From: a virus | Length of the DNA stretch: 22,043 bases | Reading direction: 5' to 3' (one strand) | Virus record (IMG/VR): IMGVR_UViG_3300042691_044806 | Location: 1 to 22,043 of that record | Shown here: piece by piece, positions 810-17,922 of the stretch | How positions within the stretch are numbered: position 1 is the stretch's first letter | Layout of the letters: the number at the start of each line of letters is the position of its first letter | The notes under the pieces: generated by a model | The model's database searches: none | What the model saw: the letters and a program-made list of their open reading frames with translations, nothing else | What the model was told of the DNA's origin: nothing | Translations under genes and position numbers: made by a program

Positions 810-2225
810 CTATAATAGATTATCTTGCGAGTTTTGTTGTTGCAATGAATTTGCATTAAAGAAAGCCTCCCCGCTGTCGTTGTCAAGTGGCGGTAATCCA
901 ATTTTTGCCCTAGCTTCGTTTCTTGTAATTACATTATTTTTAAATAAATTTATGCTAACATCAGCTTCCGCTTGTTTATATTCTTGTATCGAACTTAAAT
1001 CAACATCTAAAAAATAACCCTTATCTTCAACATCAAATACATTAAATAAAAAGCCACCTAGATGTTGTAAAATTTTATTTAACATTGGTAAAATCTGTTC
1101 TTTATACAACTGCATATTAGTTATATTTAACATATCACCAGATGTATTACTATCTTTTGAAGCTTCAATCATTTTTAACGGTATGCCAAGACCTAACATT
1201 AATTTTTTTTCAATATCATTTAACAACATTTCAAATTGATCGTATTCTAATTTATTCAATGGTGAAATATTAAAATCGGCATTTACATTTTCCATAGTTG
1301 TAATACTTCCAGAATTTGATGTTGAATTTATTATCCTTGACAATTCTACTTTAGAATCATTAATAGCTTTTTCATTCAATATAATGTCGCCATTATTTCC
1401 ATTTTTATGATTGACTGTCAAAACACTATTATTTATTGCTTTTGATGAAATATAAAACAAAGCATTTTGCACATTTTCATAAGTAGTAATATTATGAATA
1501 TTTTGCGAGATTTTAGATTTTCTATATTGATTATCTAAATATCTATTTTGTATATCTTGAAAAACAAATAATTTATAGCACGGCAATGGTGTTATACCAT
1601 CTTTTTTATATAATTTATCATATTGCATACAAGATTCATAATATTGCTCTACGGGATTATATTTAAAATTAAGTTGTGTTGTATCTGTATTTGTATTTCT
1701 TGTATCATAATTTCTTGTTGCATAATTTGTAATAACATATTCTGTTACAAATGAATTATTGTTTTTAAAATCTTTTGGTGCAATATTTGTTGATTCTATA
1801 ACTTCTAAAATTTCCGAAACTTCATCATATAATATATAATATTCTCCATTTACCATATATTCAAACAATAGCTTTTTGATAAAATCTATTTCTGTTTTAT
1901 CATATAAACCGTTTGGATTGTTTAGTAAATCAACGACTGGATGCTTTGTTATAACATTTATTTCGTTGCCAACCCTTTGTTTTAAAACAATGTCTACATT
2001 TGATGTATGATTTAAAATAATATCAAATGCTTTTGAGACTATTGCATGGTTTTTTGCTATATTATATCTTGTTTCTTTTACTAAAATCTTTTGATTTATT
2101 AGAAAATTATCAGTATGTTTTATACCAAAAAGATTATTAAATAGGTTTGTATAGCTTCTTGTTTGTTGAGGTGAATCAGGTGTTCCGCCCCAACTTTTTT
2201 TAATAAAATTTGCTATGCCAAACAT
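810..2225 (-). CDS. Phage portal protein, HK97-type
   Basis: At 471 residues this has the usual length for an HK97-type portal. It forms the ring at the unique capsid vertex through which DNA enters and leaves and to which terminase docks. Visible marks are the basic, Trp-containing N-terminus, VVDLLNNPNG around residue 97-106 followed by a YMVNGEYYILYDE strand segment, and an acidic Gln/Asn-rich C-terminal tail with RNEARAKIGLPPLD, a very typical portal ending. The ATG used is at 2225; the ATG three codons' width further upstream is in another frame. The gene follows a 59-base gap containing a perfect hairpin and is followed 4 bases later by the minor head gene. It lies about 5 kb downstream of terminase, farther than usual, because clamp and methyltransferase genes sit between. 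Confidence 0.88.
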   Translation of the reverse strand: MFGIANFIKKSWGGTPDSPQQTRSYTNLFNNLFGIKHTDNFLINQKILVKETRYNIAKNHAIVSKAFDIILNHTSNVDIVLKQRVGNEINVITKHPVVDLLNNPNGLYDKTEIDFIKKLLFEYMVNGEYYILYDEVSEILEVIESTNIAPKDFKNNNSFVTEYVITNYATRNYDTRNTNTDTTQLNFKYNPVEQYYESCMQYDKLYKKDGITPLPCYKLFVFQDIQNRYLDNQYRKSKISQNIHNITTYENVQNALFYISSKAINNSVLTVNHKNGNNGDIILNEKAINDSKVELSRIINSTSNSGSITTMENVNADFNISPLNKLEYDQFEMLLNDIEKKLMLGLGIPLKMIEASKDSNTSGDMLNITNMQLYKEQILPMLNKILQHLGGFLFNVFDVEDKGYFLDVDLSSIQEYKQAEADVSINLFKNNVITRNEARAKIGLPPLDNDSGEAFFNANSLQQQNSQDNLL

Positions 2226-3363: not shown

Positions 3364-3981
3364 TTATTTACTCATAGGCATAATTACATATACAACATCT
3401 ATATTAAATAATATATGTGATGATTTAATAGAAACTGGTGCCATTGATAATGCCCCTGATGGTGTATTTAGTAAAAACTCAACCGAGTTGCATTTTTCAA
3501 ATATTTTGCTACAATTTGCAAGATAATTTGCATTCAATAAAACATTGTTTGGTAAAGTATCATATTTATGCAAAGGAATTACTCTTGTGTAATTAGGAAA
3601 TGTGTCTGCATCCATCAAATTATAAATAGCTTTGTTGCCATTCAATTCAAAAGTAATTGTTATACCTGCAATTTCTATATTAACAACTTGCAAAACCATT
3701 TTTTTTTGCAAGTTATTTTTCAAGAAAGCAATCAAATGATTAACATCAATTCTGTTCAACAAAAACTTTACATCGTTATTATTTTCTAAATTATAATAAT
3801 CAGTGTTAGTGATTGTGTTCAAAACTAATCTATTGCCATCTGTTGCAATAATTTTTGCCTCTCGATTATTAAAATCAAAAAACATAGATTGCAAATTGCT
3901 TCGTTCTCCTTGTTTTGACATAGCATAAGAAGTAGATTTAACGGTGTCAAATAAGACAGCATGTTCTATAATTAGCTTCAT
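3364..3981 (-). CDS. DNA polymerase III beta sliding clamp-like protein, shortened (205 aa)
   Basis: Clear relative of bacterial DnaN, the ring that holds polymerase and other enzymes on DNA. Marks in order are ATDGNRL (residues 46-52, usual ATDGHRL), FPNYTRVIP (128-136, usual FPDYRRVLP) and the C-terminal VYVIMPMSK (197-205, usual YVVMPMRL). DnaN is normally about 366 residues in three domains. Here there is a complete domain 2, no domain 1, and only about 69 residues where domain 3 normally has about 120. In the E. coli clamp these three motifs line the peptide-binding pocket (G174, H175, R176, L177, P242, R246, V247, M362, P363, M364), and most are kept. The start is the ATG at 3981: the longer frame needs a TTG and would overlap the -10 box, while this ATG has the TAATCT-N8 context. 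It has its own strong promoter. How it could form a closed ring is unclear. Confidence 0.85.
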   Translation of the reverse strand: MKLIIEHAVLFDTVKSTSYAMSKQGERSNLQSMFFDFNNREAKIIATDGNRLVLNTITNTDYYNLENNNDVKFLLNRIDVNHLIAFLKNNLQKKMVLQVVNIEIAGITITFELNGNKAIYNLMDADTFPNYTRVIPLHKYDTLPNNVLLNANYLANCSKIFEKCNSVEFLLNTPSGALSMAPVSIKSSHILFNIDVVYVIMPMSK

Positions 3982-4059: not shown

Positions 4060-4107
4060 TTTAATTGTAGTTAATCTTTTTATCGGTGGGGGTTTAATTG
4101 TAGTTAA
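4060..4107. repeat. Two 15-bp direct repeats upstream of the clamp promoter
   Basis: TTTAATTGTAGTTAA occurs at 4060-4074 and again at 4093-4107, 33 bases apart, close to three helical turns. On the minus strand the repeats read TTAACTACAATTAAA and share ACAATTAAA with the -35 region itself. They sit just upstream of the -35 and may be operator or activator sites. A G-rich stretch (GGTGGGGG) lies between them. Confidence 0.5.
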
Positions 4108-4337: not shown

Positions 4338-5384
4338 CTATTTTTTAAAATATTGTAAATATATTTGATGTGATATTTGCGCTATCATCACAGGCGGAAC
4401 TGACATACCAATTAAATATCCTGCATTTAAATTGCCAAAATTATAATCTAACGGATATGAGCCAGCTAATAAAAATTCTCTATTAGTTAAATGTCTAGGG
4501 TAATCATATAAAACATGTTGAACACTACTATGTGCTGTTAAGGTTGGCAATATTCCTGATTGCTTAATAAGGCAATGGCTAAAATAATTGTTTTTATTTT
4601 CTACTCGCATACAAATATCAGCCAAAGATTTATCACTAGGAATTTTTTTATTCCATAACAATAATTGTTTTGGCTCTAATTTACCTGTTATAATTTTATT
4701 ATCAAAAATTTCTTTAAATAAAATAGGTTTTTCATTAAAACTCAACTTTAACTCTGGCAACTGCAAATCTTTTCTTTTTGCAATAAAAAACACCCTCTCC
4801 CTCCTTTGCGGAACCCCCATTGTCGCAGCATTTAATAAAAATAATTGCACTTCATAGCCAGCATCTATAAAAGCATCTTTTATTTTTTTACAATAGATTT
4901 TTGCATTGCCAACCAACATTCCTTTTACATTTTCTGCAATTACTATTTTTGGTTGCAATCTTTTAGCTAATGCAATATATTCAAAAAATAAATCATCTAA
5001 TGATTGTTTTGCTTGCCCTTCTTTAAATGTTTTTTCAACACCCCAGCCTTCTTCTCTTTTACCTGCCATAGAAAATACACTACACGGCGGGCTTCCGTCT
5101 AAAATATCTAATTCAAAAAGTTCTTGCGGTAAATCATTTCTTATTCTAAAATCTCTTATGTCTTCGTTGTAAAGATATTTTGGGTTATGATTTAATTTAT
5201 AAATTGGTGCAATTTGTTTATCTATCTCAACACCACCTAAATGATTAAATCCTGCCAATTTATAGCCCATTGTTGAGCCACCTCCGCAAATAAAAGTGCC
5301 AAATACTTTTAAATTATGTTTTTCAATATTTTTTGCAGGATAACTATCTTTTAAATGCCAATTGTAGGGAAATTTATGATCCAT
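4338..5384 (-). CDS. DNA (cytosine-5) methyltransferase
   Basis: Transfers a methyl group from S-adenosylmethionine to carbon 5 of cytosine in a specific DNA sequence. Motifs in family order: motif I FGTFICGGGSTMGYKLAGF (28-46, a GGG variant of the usual FxGxGG), motif IV GSPPCS with the catalytic Cys at 101, motif VI ENV (151-153) and motif VIII QRRERVFFIA (193-202). Then comes a short target-recognition region of about 100 residues, motif IX-like RHLTNREFLLAGSYP and motif X-like GMSVPP near the end. At 348 residues it is a normal, apparently complete enzyme. It overlaps the ParB-like gene upstream by 11 bases, so the two are coupled. No matching restriction enzyme is seen, so protection of phage DNA from host restriction is the likely role. 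Confidence 0.95.
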   Translation of the reverse strand: MDHKFPYNWHLKDSYPAKNIEKHNLKVFGTFICGGGSTMGYKLAGFNHLGGVEIDKQIAPIYKLNHNPKYLYNEDIRDFRIRNDLPQELFELDILDGSPPCSVFSMAGKREEGWGVEKTFKEGQAKQSLDDLFFEYIALAKRLQPKIVIAENVKGMLVGNAKIYCKKIKDAFIDAGYEVQLFLLNAATMGVPQRRERVFFIAKRKDLQLPELKLSFNEKPILFKEIFDNKIITGKLEPKQLLLWNKKIPSDKSLADICMRVENKNNYFSHCLIKQSGILPTLTAHSSVQHVLYDYPRHLTNREFLLAGSYPLDYNFGNLNAGYLIGMSVPPVMIAQISHQIYLQYFKK

Positions 5385-6051
5385 AATTTTCTAATAATTC
5401 AAGTAATAAAACTTCGTTTGTTGAAAAATTGTTGTCTGCTTTTATTTTATTCATTCTGCTATTGACACTTTCATACATTAAAGCATCAAATTTAAAAATA
5501 ATTTTGCATTCACTGGTGTCAATATTATCAATATTAATCTCTTCGTTTGTATTTTTTAATTCTGTTTGTTCCCCACTATTATCAATCAATTCAACATCAT
5601 TCAAAACATTGTTTAGTTTTTCAATCTTGCCAACCTCCAATGCTTTAAATTCGTAAGTTTCAAATTCTGCCAACTCAACTTCATCTACTGCAATCAATTC
5701 AACATTTTTTTGATATTGCAAAGCATTAAACCCAGTCTCTTGTTGTATTGCATTATTTTTCAATCCGTAGGCAATCCTGCTGGCATCCGTGCGGAAGTCT
5801 TTTTTAACAAATGGAATTTGTGTAGCACCTAGCATTTTCATAGCTTCAACTCTACCATTCCCACAAATAACAACTGGGTCAGCATTTTTTACCGTGCCAA
5901 TTGTTATAGGTTCGTTAAAACCCTCGGTTTCAATAATCCGTGCTAATTTTTCTAAATCAGGCTCAGTATGTATTTTTGCATTATGTTTGTCTAATACAAG
6001 CTCATCTATATTGATAAACTCTGTTAATTGTGCTGGGAAGTTTATTGACAT
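5374..6051 (-). CDS. ParB-like N-terminal domain protein
   Basis: Residues about 8-95 match the ParB/Srx N-terminal fold found in many phage genes: FINIDELVLDKHNAKIH, DLEKLARIIETEGFNEPI, then the signature CGNGRVEAMKMLG (63-75), equivalent to the G-x-x-R nucleotide-binding loop, and a VKKDFRTDASRIAYGLKNN segment. The remaining residues are acidic and lack a clear ParB helix-turn-helix, so this is not a partition protein. Such proteins are typically found directly next to phage DNA methyltransferases, as here, where its 3' end overlaps the cytosine methyltransferase start by 11 bases. Proposed roles are DNA binding or CTP/ATP-dependent nuclease activity; which applies cannot be read from the sequence. 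Confidence 0.88.
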   Translation of the reverse strand: MSINFPAQLTEFINIDELVLDKHNAKIHTEPDLEKLARIIETEGFNEPITIGTVKNADPVVICGNGRVEAMKMLGATQIPFVKKDFRTDASRIAYGLKNNAIQQETGFNALQYQKNVELIAVDEVELAEFETYEFKALEVGKIEKLNNVLNDVELIDNSGEQTELKNTNEEINIDNIDTSECKIIFKFDALMYESVNSRMNKIKADNNFSTNEVLLLELLENYGS

Positions 6052-7255: not shown

Positions 7256-8806
7256 CTAAACCATACTTACCCTAGCATTAGACATTCGCAGGCTTTCAAT
7301 ATACCTGATGCACTGTGTAAAACTATCAACTTGATCGTCGTTTTTACCATTTGGGAACTGTAATAGCTCACTGTCAAAATCAACTCGCCACGGGGCAGAC
7401 TTTGGCAAGAAAAATCGTTTGGCATCCAACAAAACACCAGAATTATGTGCTCGTTCAATCTTGCTTTTTATTGGCGTTATACCTTTCGCAACTAATCTTA
7501 ACGGCTCGCCTGTATTGTTATTTATTAACTGTCCTCTATTAATTCTATCTAATAGTGGACTTCCGTTTGCCTTGTTTTCTACCAAAACTAATCTTGGATT
7601 CCATTTGACACATAAATCAGCAGTTAATTTTTCTAATTCTGTATAAGCTATTTTTTTTCTACAAACATCTATTAAAAATAATGTTCCGTCGGCAATATCG
7701 TAAGCAAAAAATAATATTGCAGTGTAATCGGCAGTTGTTTTTTCGCTTATGGCGGCATCTATTGACATTATAGTTAAAATGTTTGGTCTTGTTAAAACGG
7801 ATTGTATTTTATTGTTATCTACTTCTTGCAACCATTCTCGCTTAAATTGATTGCCAACTATACAATCAACATTACCTAAATATTGAATCTGCCAAACAAG
7901 GTTTTGTTCATCATTATTTTTAATAGTATCATAATCTCCACTTTTTGCAAACATATCCCACAAATAACCAGCCTCTTTTTGCAACACAACTTTATTACCA
8001 TCAATAAGCGGTATCTCAATATTAAACCCATCTTTGTCTTCGGCTTTTAATGTTAAATGAAAATAATCTTTTCTGCTTGACCTTAGTATAAAACCAGTTA
8101 AATCGTCCTGAGCAACTCTTTGCTGTATAAGTAAAAAACCATTATTTCTTTTGCCAACCCTAAGTCTTCGGCTGGCTTTTTTTTGAAACCAATCATTTGT
8201 TTTTTCTAATTCATGCTGGCTTGTAGTTGTATCGTTCGGGTCGTCTATGATTAGCTCATCGGCATCTCCACCAGTAAACCTCATTGCAATATTTGTTGTA
8301 ACGGCACGGCGACCGCCTCTAAAATTTGTTGTCAACCAAGTCTTTTCTTCGTTTATCAATTTTACATTTGGAAAGATTTTTTTATAAATATTTGTTTGCA
8401 TAAGCTCCCTAATCTCCATATTTCTTTTATTTACCTCATCTTGGTTATTACCGCCACATATAAATCTTGTCTGTGGAAACCTGCCAAATACCCAAGCCGT
8501 ATATAAAACATTGCAAATAAGGGTTTTAGTATGCCCGGGTGGAATTGTTATAATAACATTTTTATATAGTAATTTTCTATCTGCTTTTAATTGACATATT
8601 GCTATTAAAACATCAGTATGGAATGATTTTTGAAAATTACAGCTGGCAGTTGTTTCGCCAAACATCAACTCAATAAATGATTTAAAATCTGTCCGTGCAT
8701 TTTGTATTTTTAATTCTTTTATTTTATTTACAGCTATTAATTGACTTTTTAGCATTAATATCTTTTTTTGAAGCAAATCTTTATTTTGGTTCATATGAAA
8801 TTGCAT
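7256..8806 (-). CDS. Terminase large subunit
   Basis: ATP-driven motor and nuclease that cuts concatemeric phage DNA and pumps it into the prohead. The N-terminal ATPase has an unusual Walker A, IPPGHTKT (residues 88-95), and a Walker B LIIDDP (185-190). The C-terminal RNase H-like nuclease shows MSIDAAISEKTTADY (348-361; Asp350), LVLVENKANG (Glu410) and NDDQVDSFTQ (490-499, acidic cluster D490/D491/D494). Length of 516 is normal. The ATG at 8806 overlaps the upstream gene by 26 bases; a second ATG at 8794 (residue 5) is equally possible. The small-terminase candidate precedes it and portal follows about 5 kb later on the same strand. Confidence 0.96.
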   Translation of the reverse strand: MQFHMNQNKDLLQKKILMLKSQLIAVNKIKELKIQNARTDFKSFIELMFGETTASCNFQKSFHTDVLIAICQLKADRKLLYKNVIITIPPGHTKTLICNVLYTAWVFGRFPQTRFICGGNNQDEVNKRNMEIRELMQTNIYKKIFPNVKLINEEKTWLTTNFRGGRRAVTTNIAMRFTGGDADELIIDDPNDTTTSQHELEKTNDWFQKKASRRLRVGKRNNGFLLIQQRVAQDDLTGFILRSSRKDYFHLTLKAEDKDGFNIEIPLIDGNKVVLQKEAGYLWDMFAKSGDYDTIKNNDEQNLVWQIQYLGNVDCIVGNQFKREWLQEVDNNKIQSVLTRPNILTIMSIDAAISEKTTADYTAILFFAYDIADGTLFLIDVCRKKIAYTELEKLTADLCVKWNPRLVLVENKANGSPLLDRINRGQLINNNTGEPLRLVAKGITPIKSKIERAHNSGVLLDAKRFFLPKSAPWRVDFDSELLQFPNGKNDDQVDSFTQCIRYIESLRMSNARVSMV

Positions 8807-9876: not shown

Positions 9877-11475
9877 TTAAAATAAATCAGTTTGTTTATC
9901 AACCTCAGGCTCACTATCAACTTTTGCATTCTTTAAATCTTGCCAGTATTTTACCCTTGCCTCCGTGATGTCGCAATATTCTTTTGACATATCGATTCCT
10001 ATGTATTTTCTGTTAGTCAAAACAGATGCAATACAAGTTGCACCGCTACCACAGAAAGGGTCAAGTATTATATCGTTTTCTTTTGAACTAAATAATGTGA
10101 TTAGATAGCTAAAAAGGGATATTGGTTTTTTCGTGCAGTGTGTGTTTGCTCTTGGCTTACCAAGTGCATTTTGTCTCCCCTCGGCAGGTTGACTTCGTGC
10201 AGATGCTGGTGCTTCGCCTTTATCAAAACTATCTAAACCTGCATTAGCTTCCGCCTGCGATGGCTTGCTAGTATTCAAAAATGGATATATGATTTCTGTA
10301 TCGTGTTGCAATTCAAGTGCTTTCTGTGATAATTTATATAATTCAGGCTGATTCTTTTTTACCCAAGCATCCAGTGAGAAGTATCGTGAAAGGTCGCCTT
10401 GGTCTGCCGGTGTTGTTCCTAGTGGGTGATTAATGTTAAATTTACCATATATATCATTTGGTGAACCATCGGTGTGTCTTGTATTTGATGAATCCATTTT
10501 ACCACTTTTTGTTGTTCTAAGAACATCCATTGCATTATTTGACACCAAAATTGTGGCTGGAAATCTTCCGTTTTGATTTGCCTCAATTGGTTTATTATCT
10601 TTTTCTGTTGAAAAACTGTTCCATTGTTTTGCATTGCTATTGTTTTTTTGATATTCGTGAGAATATACGCCACCTGCTCCATTTGGATAATTCCATTTAT
10701 CATTTTCATTCTCAATGGGAATTCGTGCCAAGTCTATACTAATTGCCCCGCTACTATTCTTTGTATATAATGATAAATCCTCTTCTGCAATACCACTGTC
10801 TAATAATGCTTTTCTTTCGTTATACCAAGTTGTTATGTGGTCTATCTTAGATTTTTCTTTATATCGCTTCTGTGCTATGATTATAGGCTCGTAGGCAGGC
10901 TTTAATTGGCAACTATACAAGCCTTCCATATATTTGGCTTCGTCTGTGGTTGGTTTTAATATTCTTTGTTTTGTTTCTGTTTGCTCTCTATCAAATGGAT
11001 TTCCGTTTGGTTGTTTTGTTCTGTTTTGCCTGCCAAAGTGTTCATATTCGCCACAATCTTCAAAATCAACCCCACTTCGTTTTTGCGAAATCTTGCTAAA
11101 ATTGGCAGCCTTTGGAAACCCTGTTTGATAATTCCAGATTATAGATGAAAATGATATATCAAAACCAGCTTCCAGTAATCTATATTGCAAAACACATTGT
11201 AAATCTTGACGAGCGGTAAATGTGGTCACAAAAAAGCCACCGTCTTTTAATACACGATTAAATTCTGTTAGCATTTTGGTTGTTGGAATTACATCCCACT
11301 GACAATTCATAAAGCCACGAGTATTATTTGCATTTTCTTTAATCAATTTTAAAGCATCTATATCTTGCAATCCGTAAGGAACATCTGTTATTAATGCCGA
11401 TACTGAATTATTTGGTAATTTTGCGATTAAATCCATATTATCGCAATTATGTATTTTATTTATAAAATTATGCAT
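9877..11475 (-). CDS. DNA methyltransferase, beta class (N6-adenine or N4-cytosine)
   Basis: Methylates an exocyclic amino group in DNA. Motif order is that of the beta class: catalytic motif IV ITDVPYGL near the N-terminus (DVPY at residues 31-34, variant of DPPY), then a long recognition region, then SAM-binding DPFCGSG (472-478) followed by RKYIGIDMSKEYCDI near the end. The stretch FSSIIWNYQTGFPKA after motif IV is typical of phage enzymes. The ATG at 11475 gives 532 residues; the longer frame needs TTG and runs into the homing endonuclease. The protein ends in QTDLF, which fits the beta-clamp-binding consensus QL[S/D]LF. The start codon overlaps the homing endonuclease 3' end by 8 bases, and broken copies of related sequence lie at 12139-12272. 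No restriction partner is visible. Confidence 0.93.
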   Translation of the reverse strand: MHNFINKIHNCDNMDLIAKLPNNSVSALITDVPYGLQDIDALKLIKENANNTRGFMNCQWDVIPTTKMLTEFNRVLKDGGFFVTTFTARQDLQCVLQYRLLEAGFDISFSSIIWNYQTGFPKAANFSKISQKRSGVDFEDCGEYEHFGRQNRTKQPNGNPFDREQTETKQRILKPTTDEAKYMEGLYSCQLKPAYEPIIIAQKRYKEKSKIDHITTWYNERKALLDSGIAEEDLSLYTKNSSGAISIDLARIPIENENDKWNYPNGAGGVYSHEYQKNNSNAKQWNSFSTEKDNKPIEANQNGRFPATILVSNNAMDVLRTTKSGKMDSSNTRHTDGSPNDIYGKFNINHPLGTTPADQGDLSRYFSLDAWVKKNQPELYKLSQKALELQHDTEIIYPFLNTSKPSQAEANAGLDSFDKGEAPASARSQPAEGRQNALGKPRANTHCTKKPISLFSYLITLFSSKENDIILDPFCGSGATCIASVLTNRKYIGIDMSKEYCDITEARVKYWQDLKNAKVDSEPEVDKQTDLF

Positions 11476-12055
11476 ATTTCCAAATATAACTTTTATGAGA
11501 ATTTCTTTCGCCACGACAACATTTTGCAATTAATTCAGGTATTGCACCAGTTATTCTACCAGCTTCACGGGTTCCACCAAATCTTGCAATTTCGTTTTTC
11601 TGTAAATCATATTGAATAACTGCTTTTGAACGATTATGTTCTGCACCAAATTTACCAAGCATTGATTTTGTATTTTTATGGCAAGACGGTTTCCATCTAT
11701 CATTTTGCATAGTATGTAAAAAATTTTCTCGCGGTGTGCACCATTCAAGATTTTCTACACAATTATTTTTTCTATTAAAATCTTTATGATTAATCCAATT
11801 TTTACCTTCAATTCTTTGCAAAAAAGCCTCTGCTACAAGTTTATGAACTTTTATTGATTTTTTATTACCAGCTTTGCCTATTATAATATTTGCATATCCA
11901 CAACTATCACTTTGTTTTAATATTTTTCCAGTATAAGGAACTTTTAATCCGTCTTTATATGTAATAATTCTATCAAGACTGCGAACATTACCAAAATTTG
12001 ATACCTCGTAATAATCAACACTTATATTTTCAATTTTTTTCCAAACTTCTTTCAT
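11468..12055 (-). CDS. HNH homing endonuclease with NUMOD4 and NUMOD-type DNA-binding module
   Basis: A 195-residue free-standing homing enzyme. Residues 4-60 are a NUMOD4 module (VWKKIENISVDYYEVSNFGNVRSLDR). Residues about 65-115 are an HNH_3-type nuclease (IKVHKLVAEAFL, WINHKDFNRKNNCVENLEWCTPREN) with the His, Asn and His positions present. Residues about 142-195 form a NUMOD1-like recognition module (VIQYDLQKNEIARFGGTREAGR, CCRG, SYIWKYA). Such enzymes cut a related phage genome lacking them and are copied into the break. Its last codons overlap the start of the intact methyltransferase, and a stub of a methyltransferase start lies just upstream, so the target was very probably the methyltransferase gene front. 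It appears intact. Confidence 0.95.
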   Translation of the reverse strand: MKEVWKKIENISVDYYEVSNFGNVRSLDRIITYKDGLKVPYTGKILKQSDSCGYANIIIGKAGNKKSIKVHKLVAEAFLQRIEGKNWINHKDFNRKNNCVENLEWCTPRENFLHTMQNDRWKPSCHKNTKSMLGKFGAEHNRSKAVIQYDLQKNEIARFGGTREAGRITGAIPELIAKCCRGERNSHKSYIWKYA

Positions 12056-17442: not shown

Positions 17443-17922
17443 ATGGAACAGATAGTTTGCCTGAATGAAGGCTGTTGCAATCCTGTAAAGCAGACATCAA
17501 AATATACAAAAAGAAAATATTGCAGTTTAGAATGCACCAAAGAAGCTAACAACAAAAAACACCAAGAGTTAAGAAAAACTGAGCGAAAACTAGGTTTAGT
17601 CAAAAAAAAATATGTTGGCGGTAAAATTAAAATGGGAAATGAAAATGAGCATATTGACTATTATATGCCAACAGATTTACAAAAAGAATTAAATATAATC
17701 AATGCAATTGAGAATAAATTGCAACATAACTATATCAAAACAGAACCACCGATAAAAAAAGAAAGTTTGGCTGTTATCTATAATAAGCCAACAAAACCGA
17801 TAGTAAAAAAACAAAAACAATTATTTGATTACATTTTTGATAAATGGATTTTTTATAAGCCAAGCCAACATAAAATGAAAAAAATCATAACTATATCGGC
17901 TATGCAACTTTGTTTGTTTTGA
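17443..17922 (+). CDS. Zinc-finger protein with clamp-binding-like C-terminus, 159 aa
   Basis: N-terminal C6-x4-C11-C12, then RKYC27-x3-C31 make a treble-clef-like zinc knuckle similar to the protein at 13351-13803. The following region is strongly basic (NNKKHQELRKTERKLGLVKK), then a linker with Pro/Lys repeats (KTEPPIKKE, KPTKPIVKKQKQLFDYIF). The last residues are MQLCLF, fitting the beta-clamp-binding consensus QL[S/D]LF with Cys at the variable place. Probably a DNA-binding factor. Last gene of the rightward set: its TGA touches the stop of the convergent gene with no base between. Confidence 0.72.
   Translation: MEQIVCLNEGCCNPVKQTSKYTKRKYCSLECTKEANNKKHQELRKTERKLGLVKKKYVGGKIKMGNENEHIDYYMPTDLQKELNIINAIENKLQHNYIKTEPPIKKESLAVIYNKPTKPIVKKQKQLFDYIFDKWIFYKPSQHKMKKIITISAMQLCLF

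Follow-up and report, generated by a model that had tools for sequence, protein, structure and literature searches.

The window, by which we mean the whole 22,043-base IMG/VR phage record analyzed here, has a G+C content of 27.6% and carries a short gene for a homolog of the beta sliding clamp DnaN. This gene encodes a protein of 205 residues, with its ATG at 3981-3979 and its stop codon at 3366-3364. A sequence-only reading of this DNA had given its coordinates correctly, to which we add, as a correction, that it lies on the minus strand. The features on which the analysis depends are as follows.

810-2225, minus strand: portal gene
3364-3981, minus strand: short beta-clamp gene
3574-3981, minus strand: complete domain 2 (2a and 2b) with the FPNYTRVIP linker, residues 1-136, aligning to E. 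coli beta 127-249
3826-3846, minus strand: ATDGNRL, residues 46-52, retaining pocket residues T172, G174, R176 and L177, with N in place of H175
3574-3600, minus strand: FPNYTRVIP, residues 128-136, retaining pocket residues P242, R246 and V247
3538-3573, minus strand: 12-residue joint, residues 137-148, in place of the lost first half of domain 3 (E. coli residues from about 257 to 313)
3367-3549, minus strand: second half of domain 3 (3b), about residues 145-205, ending in VYVIMPMSK and aligning to E. coli beta at about 317-366
3367-3393, minus strand: VYVIMPMSK, residues 197-205, retaining pocket residues V360, M362, P363 and M364, with S in place of R365
4338-6051, minus strand: genes for a ParB-like protein and then a C5 cytosine methylase, lying a little way upstream of the short-clamp gene
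7256-8806, minus strand: terminase-like gene

Along the minus strand the order of genes is antirepressor, ParB-like protein, C5 methylase, small protein, and clamp. No Rfam or tRNA features were found at the clamp locus. An exact 14-bp direct repeat, TTAATTGTAGTTAA, occurs at 4061-4074 and 4094-4107, 80-126 bp upstream of the clamp start, and nowhere else in the window. Two or more matches to it appeared in 1 of 100 shuffles, and it is possibly an operator. Elsewhere in the window, the end of a NUMOD4/HNH endonuclease gene (11468-12055) overlaps the beginning of a gene for an N6/N4 DNA methylase (9877-11529, minus strand). A sister IMG/VR contig of 29,430 bases matches the window with 99.98% identity over 18,479 bp, with 3 mismatches and zero indels, and the identical, intact short-clamp gene is present in both. 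Because the gene is intact in this second contig, its shortness is not the result of a local frameshift. A pattern search of GTDB genomes found no relatives of the clamp or of the antirepressor.

The 205-residue protein is a DnaN homolog, with a similarity that is beyond chance. It matches the NCBIfam dnaN model TIGR00663 over dnaN positions 126-253 (E=9e-13), with a score of 47.9 bits that lies far below the equivalog cut-off of 137.65, and Pfam PF02767 with an E-value of 5e-6, just above the cut-off. Comparison with solved beta clamps by phmmer gave a best E-value of 6.5e-9, and the profile of PHROG 3007 aligns residues 13-204 of the protein with its positions 9-185 of 190 (E=4.5e-12). An AlphaFold2 model built from an 81-sequence alignment (pLDDT 87.2, pTM 0.86) has the topology beta-alpha-beta-beta-beta twice over, followed by alpha-beta-beta-beta. 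With Foldseek, this model superposes on E. coli beta with a TMq of 0.78 and an rmsd of 3.5 Å, and the 50 PDB matches listed are all beta clamps, free or in complexes. Structure prediction thus returns a clamp-like fold. A RusA Holliday junction resolvase was also considered and rejected, with no RusA match in Pfam or NCBIfam and with structural matches to clamps.

Joint L-INS-i alignment with full-length clamps and pairwise comparison with E. coli beta show that the protein consists of domain 2 and the second half of domain 3 of DnaN. In the model, residues 1-136 form a strand (2-6), a helix (7-18) and strands spanning 32-58, then a second strand (71-76), helix (77-89) and strands spanning 99-121, while the 3b part forms a helix (151-160) and three strands (164-172, 177-185 and 193-200). 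Between the proline of RVIP, at the position of P249, and the 'LLNANY' strand, counted to the position of F319, there are 12 residues, compared with 69 in E. coli beta. The loss of half of domain 3, which had been noticed from length alone, is thus specifically a loss of the first half, with the second half present. Domain 1 had likewise been called absent, and PF00712 has no match in the window or in the 29-kb sister contig. The protein therefore lacks domain 1 and the first half of domain 3 and does not have the three complete domains of DnaN. Nor does it have the two complete domains per protomer of PCNA or gp45, since it holds one and a half.

What the shortened protein keeps is the client-binding pocket. 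The motifs ATDGNRL, FPNYTRVIP and VYVIMPMSK stand in the order that had been described, and with a list of pocket residues taken from the literature (PMC11139829), 15 of 18 pocket residues are identical to E. coli beta, compared with 23 of 150 other aligned residues (Fisher p=8e-9). The exceptions are H175N, V344S and R365S, and the protein has S/N at positions Y153/Y154. By residue identity, therefore, the pocket is retained, and peptide binding is predicted. The same pattern extends to related phage proteins, in which the pocket columns average 3.31 bits compared with 1.39 elsewhere (permutation p<=5e-5). The corresponding values for full-length clamps are 3.63 and 1.70 bits. Because full-length clamps conserve these columns too, the short forms have retained the pocket rather than raised its conservation. 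In one short clamp, BcepC6B gp31 (locus L067), the C terminus departs from the V-I-M-P-M motif and the cleft may be altered.

The window protein belongs to a large family. Scanning IMG/VR with the window protein as a single query returned only the sister contig, and the first phage matches from tblastn were full-length clamps; the family surfaced with alignment queries. Scans of IMG/VR with short-clamp alignments gave at least 475 confirmed stretches with one alignment as the query and 345 with another, of which the best 80 each were used, and tblastn against INPHARED gave 137 records for one query, 125 of them at 80% coverage. These searches show that the short form is common among phages of proteobacteria. 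Models in BFVD add further short proteins with a clamp fold from Rhodococcus, Gordonia and Brevibacterium phages. The fetched loci encode 154 distinct complete short clamps of 166-279 residues and 47 long clamps of 351-491 residues, so that the two length ranges are disjoint. One of these 47, a 380-residue frame at L109 (4494-5636), was counted as long although it is a short clamp with about 165 in-frame upstream residues that have no Pfam match, and it reflects either a fusion or an upstream start.

The same two segments are absent from all 154 short clamps. Occupancy is 0-1% at E. coli beta positions 1-126 and 259-300 and about 100% at the segments that bear the pocket, and the deletion of 3a is bridged by 9-16 residues, compared with 64-72 in full-length clamps. 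Rather than an oddity, then, the window protein has an architecture common to at least 154 distinct phage proteins, in a family already catalogued as PHROG 3007, and a frameshift with full-length relatives elsewhere, which the sequence-only reading had named as its own refutation, is ruled out together with assembly error by this architecture and by the second intact copy. It matches the PHROG 3007 profile over its full length, lies within the length range of the family, and has domain 2 plus 3b, the pocket motifs and a 12-residue bridge. It differs from its relatives in its long branch, its retained 2b helix, S/N at Y153/Y154 and N at H175; its highest identity to any other protein in the tree set is 31%. 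Short clamps are under purifying selection, with a median dN/dS of 0.08 over 154 same-length pairs that are not independent of one another. A single origin of the short forms has the higher likelihood and is not rejected (p-AU 0.887), with the placement of the long-branched window protein unsure.

Members of PHROG 3007 include Shigella phage EP23 gp8, Sodalis phage SO-1 gp7, Bcep781 gp15 and Escherichia phage TheodorHerzl gp07. The product name of the PHROG is 'RusA-like Holliday junction resolvase', which recurs in RefSeq (e.g. NC_016566, NC_004333 and NC_054653). Because the profile also matches genuine DnaN genes, and because GenBank members are often named DNA polymerase III beta subunit, this name appears to be a propagated annotation error. 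The family is thus already catalogued and apparently uncharacterized, with the window protein as a divergent member; a search of mostly open-access literature found no paper about PHROG 3007 short clamps.

Sliding clamps are known as closed rings. The dimer interface of E. coli beta is formed by I78, R103 and F106 in domain 1 and by I272, L273, E298 and E304 in 3a (PMC11139829), and all seven positions fall in segments that the window protein lacks. In addition, positions 317, 328, 331 and 340 of 3b are hydrophobic in nearly all full-length clamps and small or polar in the short family, and these positions probably once faced the missing half. The 2b helix region has only 7-10 residues in at least 54 of the 154 short clamps, compared with 19 in E. 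coli, and about a third of short clamps are without this channel-lining helix. In the model of an EP23-type protein (pLDDT 96.2, pTM 0.90), the 2b helix is absent and superposition on solved clamps is poorer (TMq 0.5-0.67). In the window protein itself the 2b helix is present and positions 331 and 340 are still hydrophobic; the argument from a lost core therefore applies to it with less force than to the family. Because the deletions coincide with the dimer-interface regions of beta, and the 2b helix is lost in about a third of members, a canonical DNA-encircling ring is, as judged from sequence, excluded. A split clamp with the missing parts encoded elsewhere was also considered and rejected: PF00712 is absent from 12 short-clamp phage records, ten of which are named isolates, and on the domain-3 side PF02768 recovers only the 3b half of KpV2811 gp36.

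Taken together, conservation of the cleft, loss of the surfaces that close the ring and purifying selection argue for a cleft that works outside a ring. We therefore favor a reading, to which we assign a probability of about one half, in which the phage half-clamp mimics the clamp cleft as a soluble protein that forms no ring and binds the clamp-binding motifs of host replication proteins. The piece that bears the cleft, domain 2 plus 3b, would have been cut out of the beta ring and, with no ring around DNA, would bind the QLxLF-type peptides that replication proteins carry. It could then compete with the host clamp or deliver clients to phage DNA, and likely clients would be the delta subunit of the clamp loader, Pol III alpha, Hda, MutS/MutL and Pol IV/V. 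We infer each of the following: that the protein is monomeric or at any rate does not encircle DNA, that it binds peptides, which clients it would bind, and whether the effect is shut-off or recruitment. Of the three possibilities offered by the sequence-only reading, a non-ring pocket that captures or redirects clients is the best supported. Against this reading, phages that rely on host Pol III would harm themselves by blocking it, and the window protein is without H175, R365 and Y153/Y154, which may count against cleft mimicry by this member.

The genes found beside short clamps bear on a second possibility, a polymerase adaptor, in which a non-ring piece would link a phage or host polymerase to a phage replication protein or to DNA, draw that polymerase to phage forks as an aid to processivity or hand-off, and leave the host uninhibited. 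In BcepC6B (Burkholderia) and Acinetobacter phage 4316 the clamp gene directly follows the gene for DNA polymerase and precedes those for a nuclease and a helicase, and polymerases, helicases and O-like or DnaD-like initiators recur among family neighbors, as do ParB-like proteins. The helix near the channel is also often basic, with K/R at position 140 in 78% of members and K at 148 in 60%. However, no single partner gene is linked to the clamp across the family, the clamp gene of Dhillonvirus, Bcep781 and Henu15 sits among head genes, and C-terminal QLxLF is not enriched in neighboring proteins, with none among the 2058 ORFs around other short clamps. On balance, we consider an adaptor possible but clearly less probable than the cleft mimic, noting that replication-gene neighbors are as consistent with a part in replication as with shut-off of the host. 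Klebsiella phage KpV2811 (locus L068) has the order ParB-like protein, C-specific methylase, endonuclease VII, small protein and clamp. The order of ParB-like protein, C5 methylase and clamp is not general: with the window's own proteins as phmmer queries, relatives of the C5 methylase lie near 2 of 84 short-clamp loci and relatives of ParB near none, and PHROG profiles find ParB-like neighbors near a few short clamps. Among the ORFs scanned on the window and sister-contig fragments, which were part of the total in a genome that may be incomplete, no DNA polymerase was recognized.

One protein of the window carries a consensus clamp-binding motif. The 159-residue product of 17443-17922 (plus strand) ends with the five residues QLCLF, the sole strict match to Q[LM]xLF among the predicted proteins of this phage. 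Its N-terminal segment is rich in cysteine and weakly matches a CGNR zinc finger (E=3e-4), and no relative was found in the phage collection. Judged by this motif, it is a candidate partner of either clamp, the short one of the phage or that of the host.

A ring of a new type, either a tetramer of three half-domains per protomer or a dimer closed through its 3b halves, could provide the phage with a sliding clamp of its own. The tetramer is arithmetically possible, since 4 x 3 gives the 12 half-domains of known clamps, and the window protein keeps both domain-2 helices. Nevertheless, geometry implies that 3b would have to touch 2b in a way that no known clamp shows, both regions of the established interface are deleted, the 3b core positions of the family have turned polar, and at least 54 of 154 members have no 2b helix, which together make such a ring unlikely. 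A trimer like PCNA or gp45, which the sequence-only reading had put forward, is disfavored, because 3 x 3 gives 9 half-domains rather than 12 and the interface parts are gone. Its suggestion that the protein mixes into the host ring fares poorly as well. In that case, the half-clamp would cap an opened beta protomer and poison or change the ring, and docking on host beta is conceivable in that the edges which 2b and 3b leave exposed are like those of a ring. However, the residues that close the ring, in domain 1 and 3a, are the deleted ones, the 3b positions are polar and a third of members are without the 2b helix, so we consider this very improbable. Finally, the idea that the gene is a remnant of a captured dnaN, in decay or without function, or else an assembly artifact, is scarcely credible and for the family is refuted: although database notes label Bcep781 gp15 'DNA Pol III b subunit fragment', the identical gene is intact in two contigs, the architecture recurs in 154 proteins, dN/dS is 0.08 and the AU test does not reject a single origin of the short forms.

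E. coli beta*, an internal translation product of dnaN of about 26 kDa, is a natural clamp without domain 1. It is host-encoded and retains the whole of domain 3, hence one half of the dimer interface. The phage proteins Twort gp168, G1 gp240 and N4 gp8 target the host clamp or its loader, gp168 and gp240 acting on DnaN and gp8 on HolA (PMC3594737). Their likeness to a cleft mimic is in working only: to our knowledge they are not clamp homologs, and they attach to the clamp or loader instead of imitating the cleft. E. coli beta itself resembles the window protein in homologous sequence, in the predicted fold of the retained parts and in the client pocket, and differs in having domain 1, the first half of domain 3 and the canonical dimer interface. 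The closest functional analog of the proposed cleft mimic is engineered monomeric beta (I272A/L273A), which has an intact cleft and cannot close a ring but, in contrast to the phage protein, is a full three-domain protein (PMC3022782, PMC11139829). Compared with dimeric beta, this mutant shows about 50-fold stronger binding to delta, and it cannot sustain processive synthesis by Pol III (PMC11139829). Attempts to clone plasmids that express monomeric beta with the cleft intact failed, and the authors interpret this as a dominant-negative effect (PMC3022782). Given this precedent, a natural non-ring cleft could compete strongly for the clamp loader and other clients.

Taken alone, the window gene is one more divergent member, and it is the pattern at the level of the family that is striking. 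A large phage family that is under strong purifying selection and has only the cleft suggests that the cleft alone is useful to a phage. We tentatively propose, as somewhat less probable than the cleft mimic itself, that these proteins are a widespread phage class that seizes the host replisome with a copy of the cleft alone, as a natural, ring-free decoy that diverts the loader or polymerases from the host clamp or delivers them to the phage. The apparently mistaken name of RusA resolvase hides this family in databases. Because one member is found in phage TheodorHerzl (Bas14) of the BASEL collection of E. coli K-12, the question is directly testable. If the half-clamps bind host clamp-binding motifs, they would be a naturally occurring equivalent of the engineered beta monomer and would offer both a new route for takeover of host replication and a ready template for inhibitors of the clamp cleft.
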